Both the position numbers and the translations under genes were made by a program. The notes beneath the pieces are model-generated. The model ran no database searches, was not told where the DNA came from, and worked only from the letters and a program-made list of their open reading frames with translations. DNA of 37,960 nucleotides from Planctomycetota bacterium (lineage in GTDB: Bacteria > Planctomycetota > Planctomycetia > Pirellulales > Pirellulaceae): assembly GCA_027619595.1 (NCBI GenBank), contig JAQCHP010000037.1, positions 1 to 37,960 of the forward strand, written 5' to 3'. Of this stretch, positions 2,411 to 33,500 are shown one piece after another (positions within the stretch are counted from its first letter, which is position 1; every line of letters begins with the position of its first letter).

Positions 2411-3592
2411 TCAGCAATCCGATTTGTCCGTCGCACGTTCTGCAGCGCGTAGGTGGATCCGAAACGTGCTACCGACTCGCGGGATACTCTGTACCGACAT
2501 CCGGGCATGATTATGTTCCAAAATCGATGTCGTGATGGCGAGTCCCAGTCCGAGGCCATCGGTCTTCGTTGTATAAAGTGGTTCTGCTACTCGTTGGACC
2601 TCTGCCGTCGTCAGGCCCACCCCCGAGTCGATAATCGAAATTGTAATCTCTTGTTCGTGTGCCGTGTAGCAGATTTCGATTCGAATGGAACCGCCAAGCG
2701 GCATGGCGTCTCTGGCATTGCGAATTAGGTTGCGTAGGGCGATGCGAATCTGGGAACCGTCGGCTACTGCCGGTGGGATTCCATCTTCGCATTGCAAGGA
2801 GATGTTGTGATGGGGACAGATTTCTGTAGTGCGAATCGACTCGCGTACACAAGCCACTACATCAAAATTGTGTAAGGAAGGTGCTGGCATTTTCGCATAG
2901 TTCGTCAGAGCCGATACAACCTCGTTGGCCAAATTGGCCTGGCGATCAATCCGGTCGAGATGCTCGATCAGCTTTTCAGGAGGAATCTCCTGGGAACGCA
3001 ATAAGAAGTACGCAGATGTTTTAATCGCATTGAGAGGATTACGAATTTCGTGCGCTATACCACCCGCCACTCGACCCAAGGTCGCTAACCGCTCCTGCGA
3101 CACCAAGTCAGCTTGCGCCTGATGTAACGCCTGAGTTCTTTCGGCCACTCGATTTTCCAACTCGGCATTTAATTGGCTGAGTTGCTTTTCATATTCGCGT
3201 CGCTGCGTAATGTCGCGCAGCAATCCCGTAAAATATCTTTGCTTGCCGATCGTCCATTCACTTATAGACAGCTCCAGTGGAAAATGACTACCATCTTTGC
3301 GTCGTCCGTATACTTCACGGCCAATTCCAATAATCTTTCGTTCACCAGTGCGCAGATAATTGCTTATATAGGAATCATGCTCTCGCCGTTCCTTGCCATC
3401 CATGAGCATGTTTACGTTATTGCCGATCAATTCCTCGGCACGGTAGCCGAAGATTCGCTCGGTCGCTGGATTCGCACTGCAGATGATCCCCTGTACGTCG
3501 ATGGTGACAATTCCGTCGATGGCAGTTTGTAAAATGGCTTGCAGGGCGGAGTCGTTGTCAGCCGAATGCGGAAACTGGGAATGGGTCGCCAT
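2411..3592 (-). CDS. FixL-like PAS sensor histidine kinase (putative haem/O2 sensor)
   Basis: A 393-residue soluble kinase with a PAS domain (about 13-133), a short coiled coil (135-165), a HisKA domain with H-box HEIRNPLNAI (His181), an N-box (LRNLIRNARDAM) and HATPase G-boxes (DSGVGL, GLGLGLAI). The PAS domain is strikingly FixL-like: EHDSYISNY, KIIGIGR, GRRKDG, FPLELSI and FTGLLRDIT. Aligned from memory to Bradyrhizobium FixL, His72 falls on the haem ligand His200, Arg92 on distal Arg220, Ile87 on Ile215, Leu108 on Leu236 and Ile110 on Ile238, with identical spacing. Arg206 and His214 are replaced by Asn78 and Lys86. No transmembrane segment is present. It lies 23 bases after the upstream kinase gene in the same operon as an NtrC-type regulator, which is the likely phosphorylation target. 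Haem binding is inferred. Confidence 0.9.
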   Translation of the reverse strand: MATHSQFPHSADNDSALQAILQTAIDGIVTIDVQGIICSANPATERIFGYRAEELIGNNVNMLMDGKERREHDSYISNYLRTGERKIIGIGREVYGRRKDGSHFPLELSISEWTIGKQRYFTGLLRDITQRREYEKQLSQLNAELENRVAERTQALHQAQADLVSQERLATLGRVAGGIAHEIRNPLNAIKTSAYFLLRSQEIPPEKLIEHLDRIDRQANLANEVVSALTNYAKMPAPSLHNFDVVACVRESIRTTEICPHHNISLQCEDGIPPAVADGSQIRIALRNLIRNARDAMPLGGSIRIEICYTAHEQEITISIIDSGVGLTTAEVQRVAEPLYTTKTDGLGLGLAITTSILEHNHARMSVQSIPRVGSTFRIHLRAAERATDKSDC

Positions 3593-3615: not shown

Positions 3616-4737
3616 TTAGGTATTGATTGATACGGGTGACACGTGTCGCGACGGCGGGTGTTGGCTAAGCGGCAATACAATCTCAAATTCGGCACCGGAT
3701 GCTGGATGAGGAACGCAGACGATGGACCCCTCGTGTGCCTCGACAATACGTTGTGCAATCGCTAATCCCAGCCCAGTACCGCTGGGACGAGTAGTGTAAA
3801 AGGGTTGAAAAAGATGTGGTTGCTGTTCGGCGGAAATCCCAGGGCCATTGTCACGGATTTGAAGGACGATTTGATGGCCTACCGTACGACAGGCGATGTC
3901 GATCCGAACCGGATCTGGGGTTACCGCCAGAGAATTTTCGAACAGGTTCCGGAAAACCTGTTGAAGACGAGTCGCATCAACGCTGGCGATATCCGTACTG
4001 GATTTGTGACGTTGTTTTTCGATCAGTTTCGCATCACGGCTTTTTCTTTCGGGCTCCAAGGACTCCCAAGCCCGTCGCCAAACGGTGCCCAATGAGCATT
4101 CCGCGCGGTCGAGTTGGATGGGGGCGGCGTAGGAACGAACCTCTTCCAGCAGTCCCCGCAGGTCGATCGCCGCCTTCTCGATCCTCCGTAGGTCGTCAAG
4201 TCCCTGGGAATTGGTACCTAAATCAAGTTCTAACAGTTCCACTCCCGCTTGGATCCGTTGCAAGGCGTTGCGGCTTTCGTGGGCTAACGCTGCCATCGTT
4301 TGACCAATCGTGGCTAATCGTTCCGATTGCAATGCTCTTTGCTGAGCGTCCACTAAGTCGGTCACATCTAAACCGATGGATAAAACAGATTGAATCTGTC
4401 CGGCAGGATCGCGCAAGAGGGTATTGGACCAACGGATTTGACGCAAGCGGCCAAACCGCGTTCGAATCGGATTGAGCACTCCGCGCGATTCCGAGAACTG
4501 AATCGTGCGGTTAAAGACGCTTCGAACCCAAGACTGGTCTTCCTCCGGCAAAAATGTAGAAAACCAACAGGTGCCAATGACGTCACTTAATGGGTAGCCA
4601 CTAAGTTCTTCTAGGAAACGGTTGTAGCGTACGATATTTCCGTTGGGAGCTAGGACCAAGATGATCGCCTCGGACGTGTCCAAAACTCGGTCGGCGAATG
4701 CCCTCTCTGCCGATAACTCTTGTTCGGCGAATCGCAT
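3616..4737 (-). CDS. PAS sensor histidine kinase; probably the C-terminal part of a receiver-kinase hybrid
   Basis: A kinase of 373 residues if started at the ATG at 4737. It has a PAS domain (about 15-130), an H-box HESRNALQ (His153), an N-box (FRNLFENSLAV) and G-boxes (RDNGPGI, GTGLGLAI). Its PAS domain lacks the FixL haem residues. The frame is open further up to a GTG at 4800, but those codons overlap and oppose the clear receiver reading of the neighbour. The helix EQELSAERAFADRVLDTSEA looks like the usual receiver-to-PAS linker, and planctomycetes commonly encode REC-PAS-kinase hybrids with exactly this H-box type. From the receiver start (5107) to this stop is 1492 bases, one base more than a multiple of three, so one extra base could have split a single 496-residue protein. 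Confidence 0.82.
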   Translation of the reverse strand: MRFAEQELSAERAFADRVLDTSEAIILVLAPNGNIVRYNRFLEELSGYPLSDVIGTCWFSTFLPEEDQSWVRSVFNRTIQFSESRGVLNPIRTRFGRLRQIRWSNTLLRDPAGQIQSVLSIGLDVTDLVDAQQRALQSERLATIGQTMAALAHESRNALQRIQAGVELLELDLGTNSQGLDDLRRIEKAAIDLRGLLEEVRSYAAPIQLDRAECSLGTVWRRAWESLEPERKSRDAKLIEKQRHKSSTDIASVDATRLQQVFRNLFENSLAVTPDPVRIDIACRTVGHQIVLQIRDNGPGISAEQQPHLFQPFYTTRPSGTGLGLAIAQRIVEAHEGSIVCVPHPASGAEFEIVLPLSQHPPSRHVSPVSINT

Positions 4738-5107
4738 GCAAACTCGCCAGCAAACCTTCGGGATTGATTGGCTTGATGAGGTAGTCCGCGACACGCTCAC
4801 GCAAAGCCTGAATCGAACTGTCGAGATCCGCGTAGGCAGTAACCACGACGATATCCATTTGCGATGCGATTTGCTTTAATTGTGGGATCCACGTTTCAGC
4901 CCGTCCGTCGGGCAGATTGCGGTCGATTATGAGCACATCGATTTTGGGCCATTCGGCGTGCTGGAGGGCCTCTGCGATCGAGGAGTAAAGAGCTACCACA
5001 TGGCCGTCCATGCGCAAAATGTCGCCCAGATTTGCCCGCGTATCCTGGTCATCTTCGATGACCAGGAGGTACAGCGAGTTCGTGGCAGAGTTAGGTTCTG
5101 GGGCCAT
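4601..5107 (-). CDS. Response regulator receiver domain; probably the N-terminal part of a receiver-kinase hybrid
   Basis: The first 124 residues form a complete CheY-like receiver: acidic pair Asp19-Asp20 region (VIEDDQD), phosphoacceptor Asp62 (LIIDRNLPDG), Thr90 (VVVTAYAD) and Lys112 (YLIKPINP). The remaining 44 residues (from about 129) are Arg/Gly/Pro-rich with no family resemblance and read through the coding region of the kinase in the wrong frame. They are therefore probably not genuine. It starts 17 bases after the NtrC-type regulator stop. Either the receiver ends in an odd tail and is translated separately, or it is joined to the kinase at 3616-4737 by a +1 shift near 4690-4735. 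Confidence 0.8.
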   Translation of the reverse strand: MAPEPNSATNSLYLLVIEDDQDTRANLGDILRMDGHVVALYSSIAEALQHAEWPKIDVLIIDRNLPDGRAETWIPQLKQIASQMDIVVVTAYADLDSSIQALRERVADYLIKPINPEGLLASLHAIRRTRVIGREGIRRPSFGHVRGDHLGPSSQRKYRTLQPFPRRT

Positions 5108-5124: not shown

Positions 5125-6519
5125 CTAGGAGACCACACGGACATCTCCGTCAGGACTGCTATTCGAGTCATCGACGATACCGTATTTTTCTAATAGACGA
5201 TACAGCGTCCGTCGGCCGATGCCGAGTGCCCGTGCCGTACGTGCCTTATTCCGCTGGTTCCTCTGATAGACCTGCTCGACGTGGGTGCGGTTGACAGCTT
5301 CTAAGTCGAACTTTCCACCAGTGATCACCTGAGGTGATTCTCGCGATTGTTGTACGATCTCAGGCGGAAGGTTGACGGACGATATCCGATCGTCGTCGGC
5401 GAGTACCTTGGCCCTTTCGATGGCATTTTGTAATTGTCGTACGTTTCCGGGCCAACTGTAACGCTCAAGTATTGGAATGACGTCGTCGTCGATCTGCCAC
5501 GTATTTCCCAGAAAATGCCGGACCAGTGCCGGTATGTCCCCCTCGCGGTCGCGAAGCGGTGGTAGCGTGATCGTCAGAACGTTAATCCGGTAGTACAGGT
5601 CCTCGCGAAAACGCCCTTCGCGTACTTCTTTTTGCAGGTCGCGATTGGTAGCCGCTATCAGCCGAACCTTTACCCGTCGCTCCTTGACCGAGCCAACTCG
5701 GCGCATCGATCCGTCCTCCAGGACCCGCAATAACTTTGCTTGAAGTGAACCTTCTAACTCTCCCATCTCGTCGATAAACAGCGTGCCACCGTCAGCAACC
5801 TCAAACAACCCTTGTTTCATCGCCACGGCCCCTGTAAAGGACCCCTTCTCGTGGCCAAACAGTTCACTCTCCAACAACGTGGCGGGGAGTGCCGCACAAT
5901 TGATTACCACAAGAGGATTTTCGGCCAGTGGGCTCACGCGGTGCAGGGCCCTCGCGACAAGCTCTTTGCCCGTGCCACTTTCCCCTTGAATCAAGATCGG
6001 TTGCGCCGACGCTCCCAGCCTCTGAATGAGCCGACACACCTCTTGCATGGGTGGCGACGAACCGATCATTGCCGGAACATCCAGTTGCTGCTGTTTGATG
6101 ACCGCCCGGAACTGTTGGTTTTCCTTCCGCAGCTGACGAGATTCACACGCCTTTTGGATTAAACACTCCAGGTCCTTCAGTCGAATCGGTTTGGCTAAGA
6201 ACTCTCTGGCACCCAATTTCATGGCTTCCACCGCGGTCTCAATCGTTCCCTGCCCTGTCAGTATGACGACCTCGGCACAGATTTCGTGTTCTCGGATTTT
6301 CGACAAGAGATCGAGTCCCGAGATACCCGGCATCATCATGTCCAGTAAAATTACGTCGAAGGCGCGCATTTGCAGCATCGCCAACGCATCTTCCCCACGC
6401 GCTGCGTCAGACACGTGAAATCCACGGCGGGAAAAATACCGTACCATCTCGTCCCGCAACTCGTCATCGTCATCGACGATCAGGATATCAACGGGATCGC
6501 GAACCAATTCGACAGTCAT
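5125..6519 (-). CDS. NtrC-family sigma54-dependent response regulator
   Basis: A 464-residue activator with three domains. The receiver (1-120) has acidic residues near 16-19, phosphoacceptor Asp60 (VILLDMMMPG), Thr88 and Lys110. The AAA+ domain (about 148-385) has Walker A GESGTGKE (179-186), a GSFTGA sigma54-contact loop (226-231, the Ser variant of GAFTGA), Walker B GTLFIDEMGEL and WPGNVRQLQN. The Fis-type helix-turn-helix at the end is NKARTARALGIGRRTLYRLLEKYGI. It would hydrolyse ATP to open sigma54-RNA polymerase promoters after phosphorylation. The start ATG has a GAGGTG ribosome site. It heads the operon with a receiver, two kinases and an aminotransferase, and its own promoter candidate (6594-6579) is of sigma54 type. 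Confidence 0.95.
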   Translation of the reverse strand: MTVELVRDPVDILIVDDDDELRDEMVRYFSRRGFHVSDAARGEDALAMLQMRAFDVILLDMMMPGISGLDLLSKIREHEICAEVVILTGQGTIETAVEAMKLGAREFLAKPIRLKDLECLIQKACESRQLRKENQQFRAVIKQQQLDVPAMIGSSPPMQEVCRLIQRLGASAQPILIQGESGTGKELVARALHRVSPLAENPLVVINCAALPATLLESELFGHEKGSFTGAVAMKQGLFEVADGGTLFIDEMGELEGSLQAKLLRVLEDGSMRRVGSVKERRVKVRLIAATNRDLQKEVREGRFREDLYYRINVLTITLPPLRDREGDIPALVRHFLGNTWQIDDDVIPILERYSWPGNVRQLQNAIERAKVLADDDRISSVNLPPEIVQQSRESPQVITGGKFDLEAVNRTHVEQVYQRNQRNKARTARALGIGRRTLYRLLEKYGIVDDSNSSPDGDVRVVS

Positions 6520-6948: not shown

Positions 6949-7392
6949 ATGGCCTCCCATCGCATTCTTTGCCCGGTCGACTTCTCGGCGCACAGTAAGG
7001 TCGCGATTCAATACGCGTCTTGCTTAGCCAAGTCGCTAAACGCCAAGATCTACTTCTTGCACGTTGCCGAAATTGTCCCCGCGTTCGAGGCGGGATATTG
7101 CGGCGCTGTGCCCTCGGTCGCTGATTTGGATTCGGAAGAACAGGAACTGCTGCAAGTTAAGCCCTCAGAACCGGGACTTGAATATGAACACTTCTCGATG
7201 GTTGGTCATCCGGCCGAGGTGATTCTCGAGTTCGCCAAGGCTCATGATATCAACTTGATCGTCCTGGGGACACACGGCCGTACCGGCGTCTTGCGGCTGG
7301 TCATGGGCTCAGTCGCCGAAATGGTAGTCCGGCGCGCCGATTGTCCCGTCATGACCGTGAAGCAGCCCGCGAGTGTCCGGGCTTGCCCTTAG
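6949..7392 (+). CDS. Universal stress protein (UspA family)
   Basis: A single-domain Usp of 147 residues, the normal family length. It opens with HRILCPVDFSAHS (the first strand and nucleotide-binding Asp) and carries the ATP-binding signature GTHGRTGVLRLVMGSVAE, fitting the G-x2-G-x9-G-S/T pattern of ATP-binding Usps. Such proteins are induced by starvation, respiratory block or low oxygen in many bacteria. The ATG has a GGAG site 8 bases upstream. A sigma54-type promoter at 6872-6887 is its likely control point and would tie it to the NtrC-type regulator encoded divergently. It converges on a second usp gene 39 bases away. Confidence 0.92.
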   Translation: MASHRILCPVDFSAHSKVAIQYASCLAKSLNAKIYFLHVAEIVPAFEAGYCGAVPSVADLDSEEQELLQVKPSEPGLEYEHFSMVGHPAEVILEFAKAHDINLIVLGTHGRTGVLRLVMGSVAEMVVRRADCPVMTVKQPASVRACP

Positions 7393-7431: not shown

Positions 7432-7875
7432 TCATTTGGCCTTCTTCTTGAGCACCAGCACTGGGCAGAGTGCGTGCCGGACCACCCGTTCCGCCACGGA
7501 CCCCATGATCACACGACTCAAGCCGGTGCGCCCATGCGAAGGGATAACGATAATTCCTGCCTCGACCTCCTCTGCCAAGTCGACGATGATTGTGCCAGGA
7601 TCGCCCACACCAATATCGATGTGTATATTTTCAACGTCCACACCATGCTCTTTTAGCGTCTTTTCCACGGAGGTTCGAGCGTGATCTTTACGTCGCTCAT
7701 CGTCCACCGTCTCCCAAATCACTCCGGGGTCTGTCGCCGTCAAGTGAGGAATCACATGGAGCACATGAATGTCGCCCGATTTGGTTGCCAGTTGGCATGC
7801 CATTTCCACGGACGAAATCGACTCGCTCGAAAAATCGAATGGTGCAACGATGCGGCGGTTTTCAAACCAATTCAT
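7432..7875 (-). CDS. Universal stress protein (UspA family)
   Basis: A 147-residue Usp domain starting MNWFENRRIVAPFDFS and carrying the nucleotide-binding signature SHGRTGLSRVIMGSVAE. I chose the ATG at 7875. The frame is open to 8019, but those extra 48 codons cover the promoter region and show no homology. The product differs clearly from the convergent Usp at 6949, so this is not a recent duplication. A perfect sigma54 consensus sits 118-133 bases upstream on the same strand, leaving a leader of about 105 bases. It is divergent from the D-lactate dehydrogenase gene, consistent with a role in anaerobic or energy stress. Confidence 0.92.
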   Translation of the reverse strand: MNWFENRRIVAPFDFSSESISSVEMACQLATKSGDIHVLHVIPHLTATDPGVIWETVDDERRKDHARTSVEKTLKEHGVDVENIHIDIGVGDPGTIIVDLAEEVEAGIIVIPSHGRTGLSRVIMGSVAERVVRHALCPVLVLKKKAK

Positions 7876-7992
7876 GAGATGGATCCTTTTCTTGATGACG
7901 TGAAGGGCCGCCCTGCCTCCAGCGTGTTGCCAAGGCGGGGCGACGGATAGTATTGCCGGTACATCAAATCGTCTCGGGGTAAAATAGTTTGT

Positions 7993-8008
7993 TGCAAGCA
8001 GCGTGCCA
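7993..8008 (-). promoter_or_regulatory. Perfect-consensus sigma54 (-24/-12) promoter of the second usp gene
   Basis: Read on the minus strand the sequence is TGGCACGCTGCTTGCA, matching every defined position of TGGCACRNNNNTTGCW. The predicted start is near 7981. It lies in the 237-base gap between divergent usp and ldhA-like genes and faces usp. A small dyad ATTGA-GG-TCAAT (8009-8020) abuts the -24 element. Confidence 0.8.
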
Positions 8009-8043
8009 ATTGAGGTCAATCGCCATATTCCCGTACGATGCTA

Positions 8044-31460: not shown

Positions 31461-33500
31461 ATGAGCAAGATTCCGGCTCCTAAGCCAAGGCCACCGCACC
31501 TTTCCAAGAGACCTGCAGGCGGATTCAATTGGCAGGTTCTTTGGTGGTATATTCCGACAACTTTATTGCTGCTATGGATTTGGCAAGATTTGTTTGCCGC
31601 TGTTACGATTCGAACAATTTCGTACAGCGAATTCAAGGAACACGTTGAACGGAGCGAGGTCGAAGAATGTAAAATTGGCGATGAGCAAATAGTTGGTTCA
31701 ATTGTTCTGCAGTCGGCCAACGAGAAGCCCGTGGAATCGACTTCGGAAACAGTGTCGTCAAACAAAACGGTCGATCGTGCTACCACCAAAGAATCGATTG
31801 GCGAGGATGAGAGAAAAGTCGATGGAACCGACAAATCTGACAACAAGACAGATAAGTTCTTGTTCCGTGTGGTACGAGTTGATGATCCCAAGTTGGTCGA
31901 GCACTTAGAGAAGGCTGGCGTCAAATTCGTTGGAGTGCGTCCCAGCTTGTTGTCTCAGTTCTTGTTGTCTTGGATCCTGCCGATTGGAATCATGTTTCTG
32001 TTGTGGACGATGTTGTCACGGCGATTGGGCTCCGCTGGCCAAGCTGTGATGAATATTGGAAAAAGTAAAGCGACCCTAGTGGCTGATCAGGACACGGGTG
32101 TCAACTTCGGCGACGTGGCCGGCTGCGACGAAGCGAAATTTGAATTGCAGGAAGTCGTCGACTTTTTGCAAAATCCTGATCGCTATACCCAATTGGGCGC
32201 AAAGATCCCTAAAGGGGTTCTGCTGGTTGGCCCTCCCGGAACTGGAAAGACGTTGCTTGCTCGCGCTGTGGCTGGCGAAGCGAAAGTTCCTTTTTTCTCA
32301 CTTAGCGGCAGTGATTTTGTGGAGATGTTCGTGGGTGTCGGCGCATCGCGTGTTCGTGATCTATTCGATCAGGCGACAAAGAATGCCCCTTGCATAATAT
32401 TCATCGACGAGCTGGATGCAATTGGCCGCCAACGCGGTGTGCACGTCGGAGCCGTCAACGATGAGCGTGAACAAACTTTGAACCAGCTGCTCGTCGAAAT
32501 GGATGGGTTTGAAGCAAATGTTGGTGTCATTTTACTAGCGGCTACGAATCGTCCAGAAGTGCTCGATCGTGCACTACTGCGCCCCGGTCGATTTGACCGC
32601 CAGATCGTCGTGGATGCGCCTGACCTCGCCGGGCGCCTTGCAATTCTAAAAGTACATTCTCGCAATAAGCCCTTGGACGCGGACGTTGAATTGCGCAAGA
32701 TTGCGCAAGGGACTCCTGGAATGTCGGGGGCCGATTTAGCAAATGTGCTCAATGAGGCCGCATTGCTTAGTGCACGTCACGACGGCAAGGTGATTAAGCA
32801 AAAGGATATCGAGGACGCCGTTGAGAAGGTAATTGCCGGGCCGGAACGACGAAGTCGATTGTTGGGCACGGTCGAAAAGAAACGCGTAGCATTTCATGAG
32901 GTGGGGCACGCTTTGGTGGCTGCCTACAGTCCCCATTCCGACCCAGTCCATAAGATCAGCATCGTGCCACGTGGACGGGCTGCGCTCGGATACACACTTC
33001 ACCTCCCTTCCGGTGAACAGTTTCTGTTAACACGGTCAGAGATTATTGATCGCCTTAAGGGTCTGTTAGGCGGGAGAGCCGCGGAACAGGTCGTCTATGG
33101 AGAAGTTAGTACGGGTGCTGAAAATGACCTGGAACGGGCCACCGCGATGGCCCGTCAGATGGTGTGTATGTATGGAATGAGTGAAAAAATCGGTTTGATC
33201 CATTGTGCGCGTCGTGAGAGTATGTTCATGCCCGATCAGGGTGGGGCACTTGATTGTAGTGATGCGACCGCCAATGCTATTGACATCGAAGTTCGGCAAA
33301 TACTCGACGCTGCTTATCAAGATGCTCAACAAATCTTGGTTAGCCATCGTGATCAGTTGGACGCAATCGCGAACGAACTCTTAGAAAAAGAGACCCTCGA
33401 TAGCGCCGCCTTCCGGTCGTTTCTTACCCAAGACCACACAGCAGATAGGCTTGGCGACACGGTTGCAGGCAACTTAGGCGAGCAAACCGGTGACGACTGA
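31461..33500 (+). CDS. ftsH: ATP-dependent zinc metalloprotease FtsH
   Basis: A 679-residue membrane AAA+ protease. Two membrane helices flank an extracytoplasmic region (about 25-45 and 165-190), and that region includes a Ser/Thr/Lys/Asp-rich stretch (about 95-135) that looks like a linker insertion. The AAA+ domain has Walker A GPPGTGKT (about 257), Walker [12 protein letters not shown] and the second region of homology [17 protein letters not shown]. The zinc site HEVGH is at about 479, with the third ligand in the later acidic [14 protein letters not shown] block. It degrades misfolded membrane and some cytosolic proteins. The ATG at 31461 was chosen over an open frame from 31398. Its last 27 bases overlap the convergent DUF1501 gene. 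Confidence 0.95.

Follow-up and report, generated by a model that had tools for sequence, protein, structure and literature searches.

The hybrid histidine kinases have been surveyed in general (outlined in PMC4558063), and one of the closest described systems is the NmpS locus of Myxococcus xanthus. As the parts of PMC6211767 that deal with this locus describe it, NmpS is a kinase with an N-terminal receiver that phosphorylates an NtrC-like regulator, and its kinase activity is proposed to be held off once another kinase phosphorylates its receiver. The same account places at the locus a partner kinase, NmpU, with a protoglobin domain, and a double-receiver protein, NmpT (PMC6211767). Described in this way, the locus resembles the one reported here in bringing together a hybrid kinase with an N-terminal receiver, an NtrC-like regulator and a second kinase (PMC6211767). 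The NmpS gene is intact, whereas the gene reported here is not, and the comparison is one of description (PMC6211767).

Nearer in sequence are the fused kinases of other planctomycetes, including those of Stieleria sedimenti (L032), Planctomycetes bacterium TBK1r (L033), Rhodopirellula sallentina (L034) and R. baltica BR-MGV (L036). These proteins have the same REC-PAS-HisKA-HATPase order and 50-53% identity in the kinase, and a homologue of the kinase gene that follows here is present at L032-L034 but not at L036. All four are single open reading frames (ORFs), in contrast to the two frames, 14 nt short, that are described below. A search of the literature by title found no title on such a split between receiver and kinase.

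The locus lies in a window of 37,960 nucleotides, the whole stretch of DNA that was analysed, from a planctomycete genome of 5.18 Mb in 281 contigs. Its features are as follows.

5125-6519, minus strand: NtrC-type response regulator with REC, sigma-54 AAA+ and Fis HTH domains
5107-4601, minus strand: receiver ORF of 168 aa, family-like to about residue 123, the remaining 45 residues lying outside the family frame
4738-4720, minus strand: junction within the receiver-to-PAS helix, 19 nt as against 33 nt in fused relatives with the usual spacing
4737-3616, minus strand, ATG at 4737: kinase ORF of 373 aa with the end of the linker helix, PAS, HisKA and HATPase
2411-3592, minus strand: second PAS-HisKA-HATPase kinase, just downstream of the kinase ORF

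Only 17 nt separate the end of the NtrC-type regulator from the start of the receiver ORF. The regulator and the second kinase flank the split pair, a feature shared with multi-kinase pathways of the NmpRSTU type. Pfam matches in the second kinase are to PAS, HisKA and HATPase, with no globin. Near the regulator gene are also two convergent genes for universal stress proteins (6949-7392, plus strand; 7432-8019, minus strand). The receiver and the kinase do not share one reading frame. An earlier note on this DNA had given 1,492 bases (3x497+1) from the receiver start to the kinase stop, a kinase frame that is +1 relative to the receiver frame, and an overlap of 137 bases; all three values were recovered when the ORFs were read and measured again, the overlap running from an ATG at 4737 to the receiver stop.

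The catalytic motifs of a hybrid kinase are present in both halves. The receiver ORF matches Response_reg at 70.2 bits and the kinase frame matches HATPase_c (91.5 bits), PAS_4 (38.9 bits) and PAS (33.8 bits). The HisKA match is 24.1 bits, just below the cut-off of 26.9; every residue of HESRNALQR other than the L is invariant across an eight-row alignment. The hallmarks of a receiver are an acidic pair, a phospho-acceptor D, and a T and a K, and here the set is complete, with E18, D19 and D20, D62, T90 and K112. Numbered from the ATG at 4737, the kinase motifs are HESRN at 153, NLFENS at 264, DNGPGI at 296 and GTGLGLA at 320. At the domain level, the two frames hold the receiver residues, a PAS domain, a HisKA domain with its H, and an HATPase domain with its N and G boxes.

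Loss of conserved residues was measured in a leave-one-out test with 34 relatives. Near-invariant sites are altered at 2 of 19 positions in the receiver (G105R and R120L, the latter adjoining the break) and at 2 of 63 in the kinase. Two or more such departures also occur in 3 of the 34 relatives for the receiver and in 11 of the 34 for the kinase, which places the window within the range of intact relatives. The terminal branch of the window receiver is the fourth longest of 35, and that of the kinase falls outside the eight longest. That the halves are without visible decay suggests that the break is recent, that the halves are still in use, or that the break is absent from the organism. No Shine-Dalgarno-like site was found before the ATG at 4737 (duplex energy -3.5; random median -3.1), and therefore separate translation of the kinase remains putative; the receiver start likewise has no clear site (-2.9).

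With the window's own genome counted in each case, a kinase query matches 85 of 98 relatives at E 1e-20. At 1e-60, a kinase profile has matches in 145 of 241 family genomes and a profile of fused proteins in 171 of 397 class genomes, many of these last matches covering only the kinase part. Matches to the fused profile that contain the receiver start at position 1-7, and the window match starts at 124, in an open frame of 419 codons. Among the 60 solved chains listed of the 227 matched, none was covered over the whole profile. The named loci are the best 80 of 524 confirmed, and all 80 are titled as planctomycetes except L041 and L099, which are titled only 'bacterium'; Fuerstiella and Schlesneria are planctomycete genera. 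Among the relatives found, the closest agree with the window at about 54% of kinase residues. Directly after the fused gene, 8 of these best 80 of 524 loci have a homologue of the second kinase (L032-L035, L038, L039, L044 and L050), which supports, but does not prove, orthology with the window pair. Four of the eight (L034, L038, L039 and L050) also have an NtrC-type homologue upstream, placed on the opposite strand, unlike in the window, and at other close loci of the same best 80, such as L036 and L037, neither neighbour homologue was found.

To place the split within the family, 158 loci were fetched from other genomes, of which 135 are distinct and have a kinase match at E 1e-30. The receiver is in the stop-to-stop ORF of the kinase at 71 of the 135, and at 63 it is absent within 1,500 nt upstream, some of these loci being truncated by contig ends. 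At one locus (L176) it is a separate, non-overlapping ORF in the kinase's own frame, and at none of the 135 is there a receiver ORF in a frame other than that of the kinase. Therefore, the claim of the earlier note that the two frames are a split hybrid kinase, common in planctomycetes in its fused form, is borne out, and orthologues with the same two overlapping frames, which by its own account would refute it, were not found among the 135. To seek split pairs, 20 kinases, mostly with short open frames, were also fetched; among them L164 is cut by a contig end and has little upstream DNA, and L176 is the sole case of a separate receiver ORF. In L176 (genome G217) the receiver is at 802-1203 and the kinase at 1231-2340, and the open frames are 27 nt apart, counting stop codons. 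It is a natural unfused arrangement of receiver and PAS kinase in a more distant relative, with a weak receiver match (E 2.6e-6).

The place and the size of the break follow from the spacing between conserved residues. The receiver K and a V on the PAS side are 34 codons (102 nt) apart in 36 of 38 hand-picked relatives, 35 codons apart in one and 41 in one; the 34-codon value was measured in L036 and in L120, L123 and L131, which are apparently the same genes as L032-L034. In the window it is 88 nt instead of the usual 102. A broader set gives the same result. Seventy distinct relatives passed the receiver score, of which 60 could be mapped to a conserved asparagine position in the PAS domain and 10 were excluded. 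The distance from the K to this asparagine is 55 codons in 50 of the 60, 56 in two, 62 in two and at least 176 in six, the last with an insertion of at least 121 codons that is probably an extra domain. Spacing below 55 codons was found in none of the 60 mapped relatives, and the window, at 88 + 63 = 151 nt, is 14 below the 165 nt of the common form.

The last family codon in the receiver frame is at 4741-4739 (LLASL, about residue 123), and family character resumes in the kinase frame with the E codon at 4719-4717. Therefore, the break is within the 19 bases at 4738-4720. Comparison with the family moves the loss of receiver character from residue 129, the value of the earlier note, to about residue 123, and alignment with relatives bears out its reading of SAERAFADRVLDTSEA as the linker-to-PAS sequence of the family. 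A single-base change at AGAGAGGGC (4708-4700, minus strand), its example, is rejected, given that the family-like part of the kinase frame already begins upstream of this place. Nor is a single-base cause supported, since one dropped base would leave the helix five residues short, a length seen in none of the 60 relatives, while the region is in fact 14 nt short against the family. A homopolymer error was also considered and rejected, as 4681-4760 has a single run of at least four bases, the AAAA at 4682, and the junction does not include it.

The fused relative L003 was modelled with AlphaFold (mean pLDDT 84.2, pTM 0.45). A single predicted helix at 110-143 runs from the end of the receiver to PAS, with pLDDT of 74-88 over 111-140. 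K106 and V140 (106 + 34) bound the measured stretch in this protein, and the affected codons correspond to about 118-128, within the modelled helix. A loss of five residues would be expected to break the heptad register of this joining helix.

The 14-nt deficit could have arisen in one event or in two. A linker profile was built from 33 distinct relatives and used to score the possibilities. One 14-nt gap gives a best score of 44.3 bits (marginal 39.5), one extra base with a 15-nt gap gives 52.2 bits (marginal 42.2), and one base dropped without a gap gives 20.0 bits. A single 14-nt deletion accounts for both frame and length, and it is preferred over two events. The two-step course, in which the linker became five codons shorter in frame and one base was then gained near 4738-4736, by mutation or sequencing error, scores 2.8 bits higher in the marginal and 7.9 bits higher in the best placement, and the RFAEQ that it leaves in the kinase frame resembles the family RIAE(K/R/Q) at linker positions 13-17. 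It requires a second event, however, and an intermediate with the shorter spacing has no counterpart in the 60 mapped relatives, where the small changes are only of +1 codon (two) and +7 codons (two); we regard it as unlikely. The single-base shift of the earlier note survives as a possible second of two events, in the form of a gain, and is not supported as the sole cause.

Whether the deletion belongs to the organism or to its assembly is a separate matter. A fault of assembly or a minority strain variant, with the dominant source genome intact, has a substantial though lesser chance of being correct and is compatible with the loss of 14 bases as read here. The genome is a draft in 281 contigs, and the split is shared by none of the 135 relatives. 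A loss of 14 bases is not typical of base-calling error; a collapsed or minority variant is a possible source. On the other side, few credible frameshift-like places were met when the window and 20 further stretches, 265 kb of the same assembly, were scanned. Of the six frameshift-like calls that a coding-potential HMM made in the 265 kb, four proved to be ordinary gene ends, one, at 33447 in the window, is a single-base effect, and one (L156) is a possible case; this HMM is insensitive, having failed to call the receiver as coding and missed the break under study. Two candidates, the window and L151, came from a codon-usage scan. The 151 candidates of a phased Markov scan were too numerous to believe, and that scan was set aside. 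In L156, near 4285 on the minus strand, the coding potential moves to another frame 115 nt ahead of the stop of the upstream ORF, a possible second case; in L151, near 3850 on the minus strand, codon usage switches frame 32 codons before the stop.

The two frames might instead be a product of natural fission, such that overlapping frames now yield the receiver and the PAS kinase as two proteins, the kinase from the ATG at 4737, and the signal passes in trans. The catalytic motifs kept in both halves, the lack of any excess loss of conserved residues and the in-frame ATG at the break are consistent with fission, as is the separate receiver gene just before the PAS kinase in L176. The ORFs of that more distant relative do not overlap, however, and its receiver is weakly matched. 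In the window a ribosome-binding site is not apparent, two near-invariant receiver residues are changed, with R120L next to the break, and a receiver in another frame occurs at none of the 135 distinct loci, which rejects the overlapping split as a shared arrangement. Fission is improbable; were it true, the kinase would be freed from its receiver helix. Programmed +1 frameshifting, which would yield a fused protein from frames that do differ by +1 and overlap, is very improbable. The two-frame arrangement is conserved in none of the 135 relatives, and the product helix would be five residues short. The receiver frame stays open for 45 codons beyond the junction, so that no stop codon marks a +1 site. 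We know of no bacterial +1 site that resembles this junction.

The explanation that we hold to be probable is that the ancestor of this locus was an intact hybrid kinase with an N-terminal receiver, and that this assembly lacks about 14 bases of the sequence encoding the helix between receiver and PAS. The ancestral gene would have encoded REC, a long helix, PAS, HisKA and HATPase, as in the rest of the planctomycete family, and the loss would have been one deletion. Past the break, the receiver frame continues for 45 non-family residues and then stops, and the kinase frame, with an ATG at 4737, retains PAS, HisKA and HATPase. If translated, the kinase half would be without the receiver signal through the helix. 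By analogy with NmpS, as the account in PMC6211767 presents it, the uncontrolled kinase half may act on the NtrC-type regulator next to it, which is its likely partner. This explanation covers the sequence as assembled, whether the organism itself carries the deletion or only its assembly does.

The locus looks like one disrupted copy in a known family, an ordinary gene disruption rather than a new kind of gene. The comparison illustrates the use of spacing that is conserved across a family, which tells a loss of 14 bases from a single-base error where frame arithmetic alone cannot. It also indicates that the receiver-to-PAS helix of these kinases is near constant in length, with the small departures among the 60 mapped relatives being of one codon or of seven, one heptad. 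Given a similar cast of neighbours, the intact planctomycete kinases could work as NmpS does, and a real split would deprive the kinase half of this NmpS-like control by its receiver. If the deletion is real and fixed, the locus would be a natural experiment that uncouples a kinase from the receiver controlling it.
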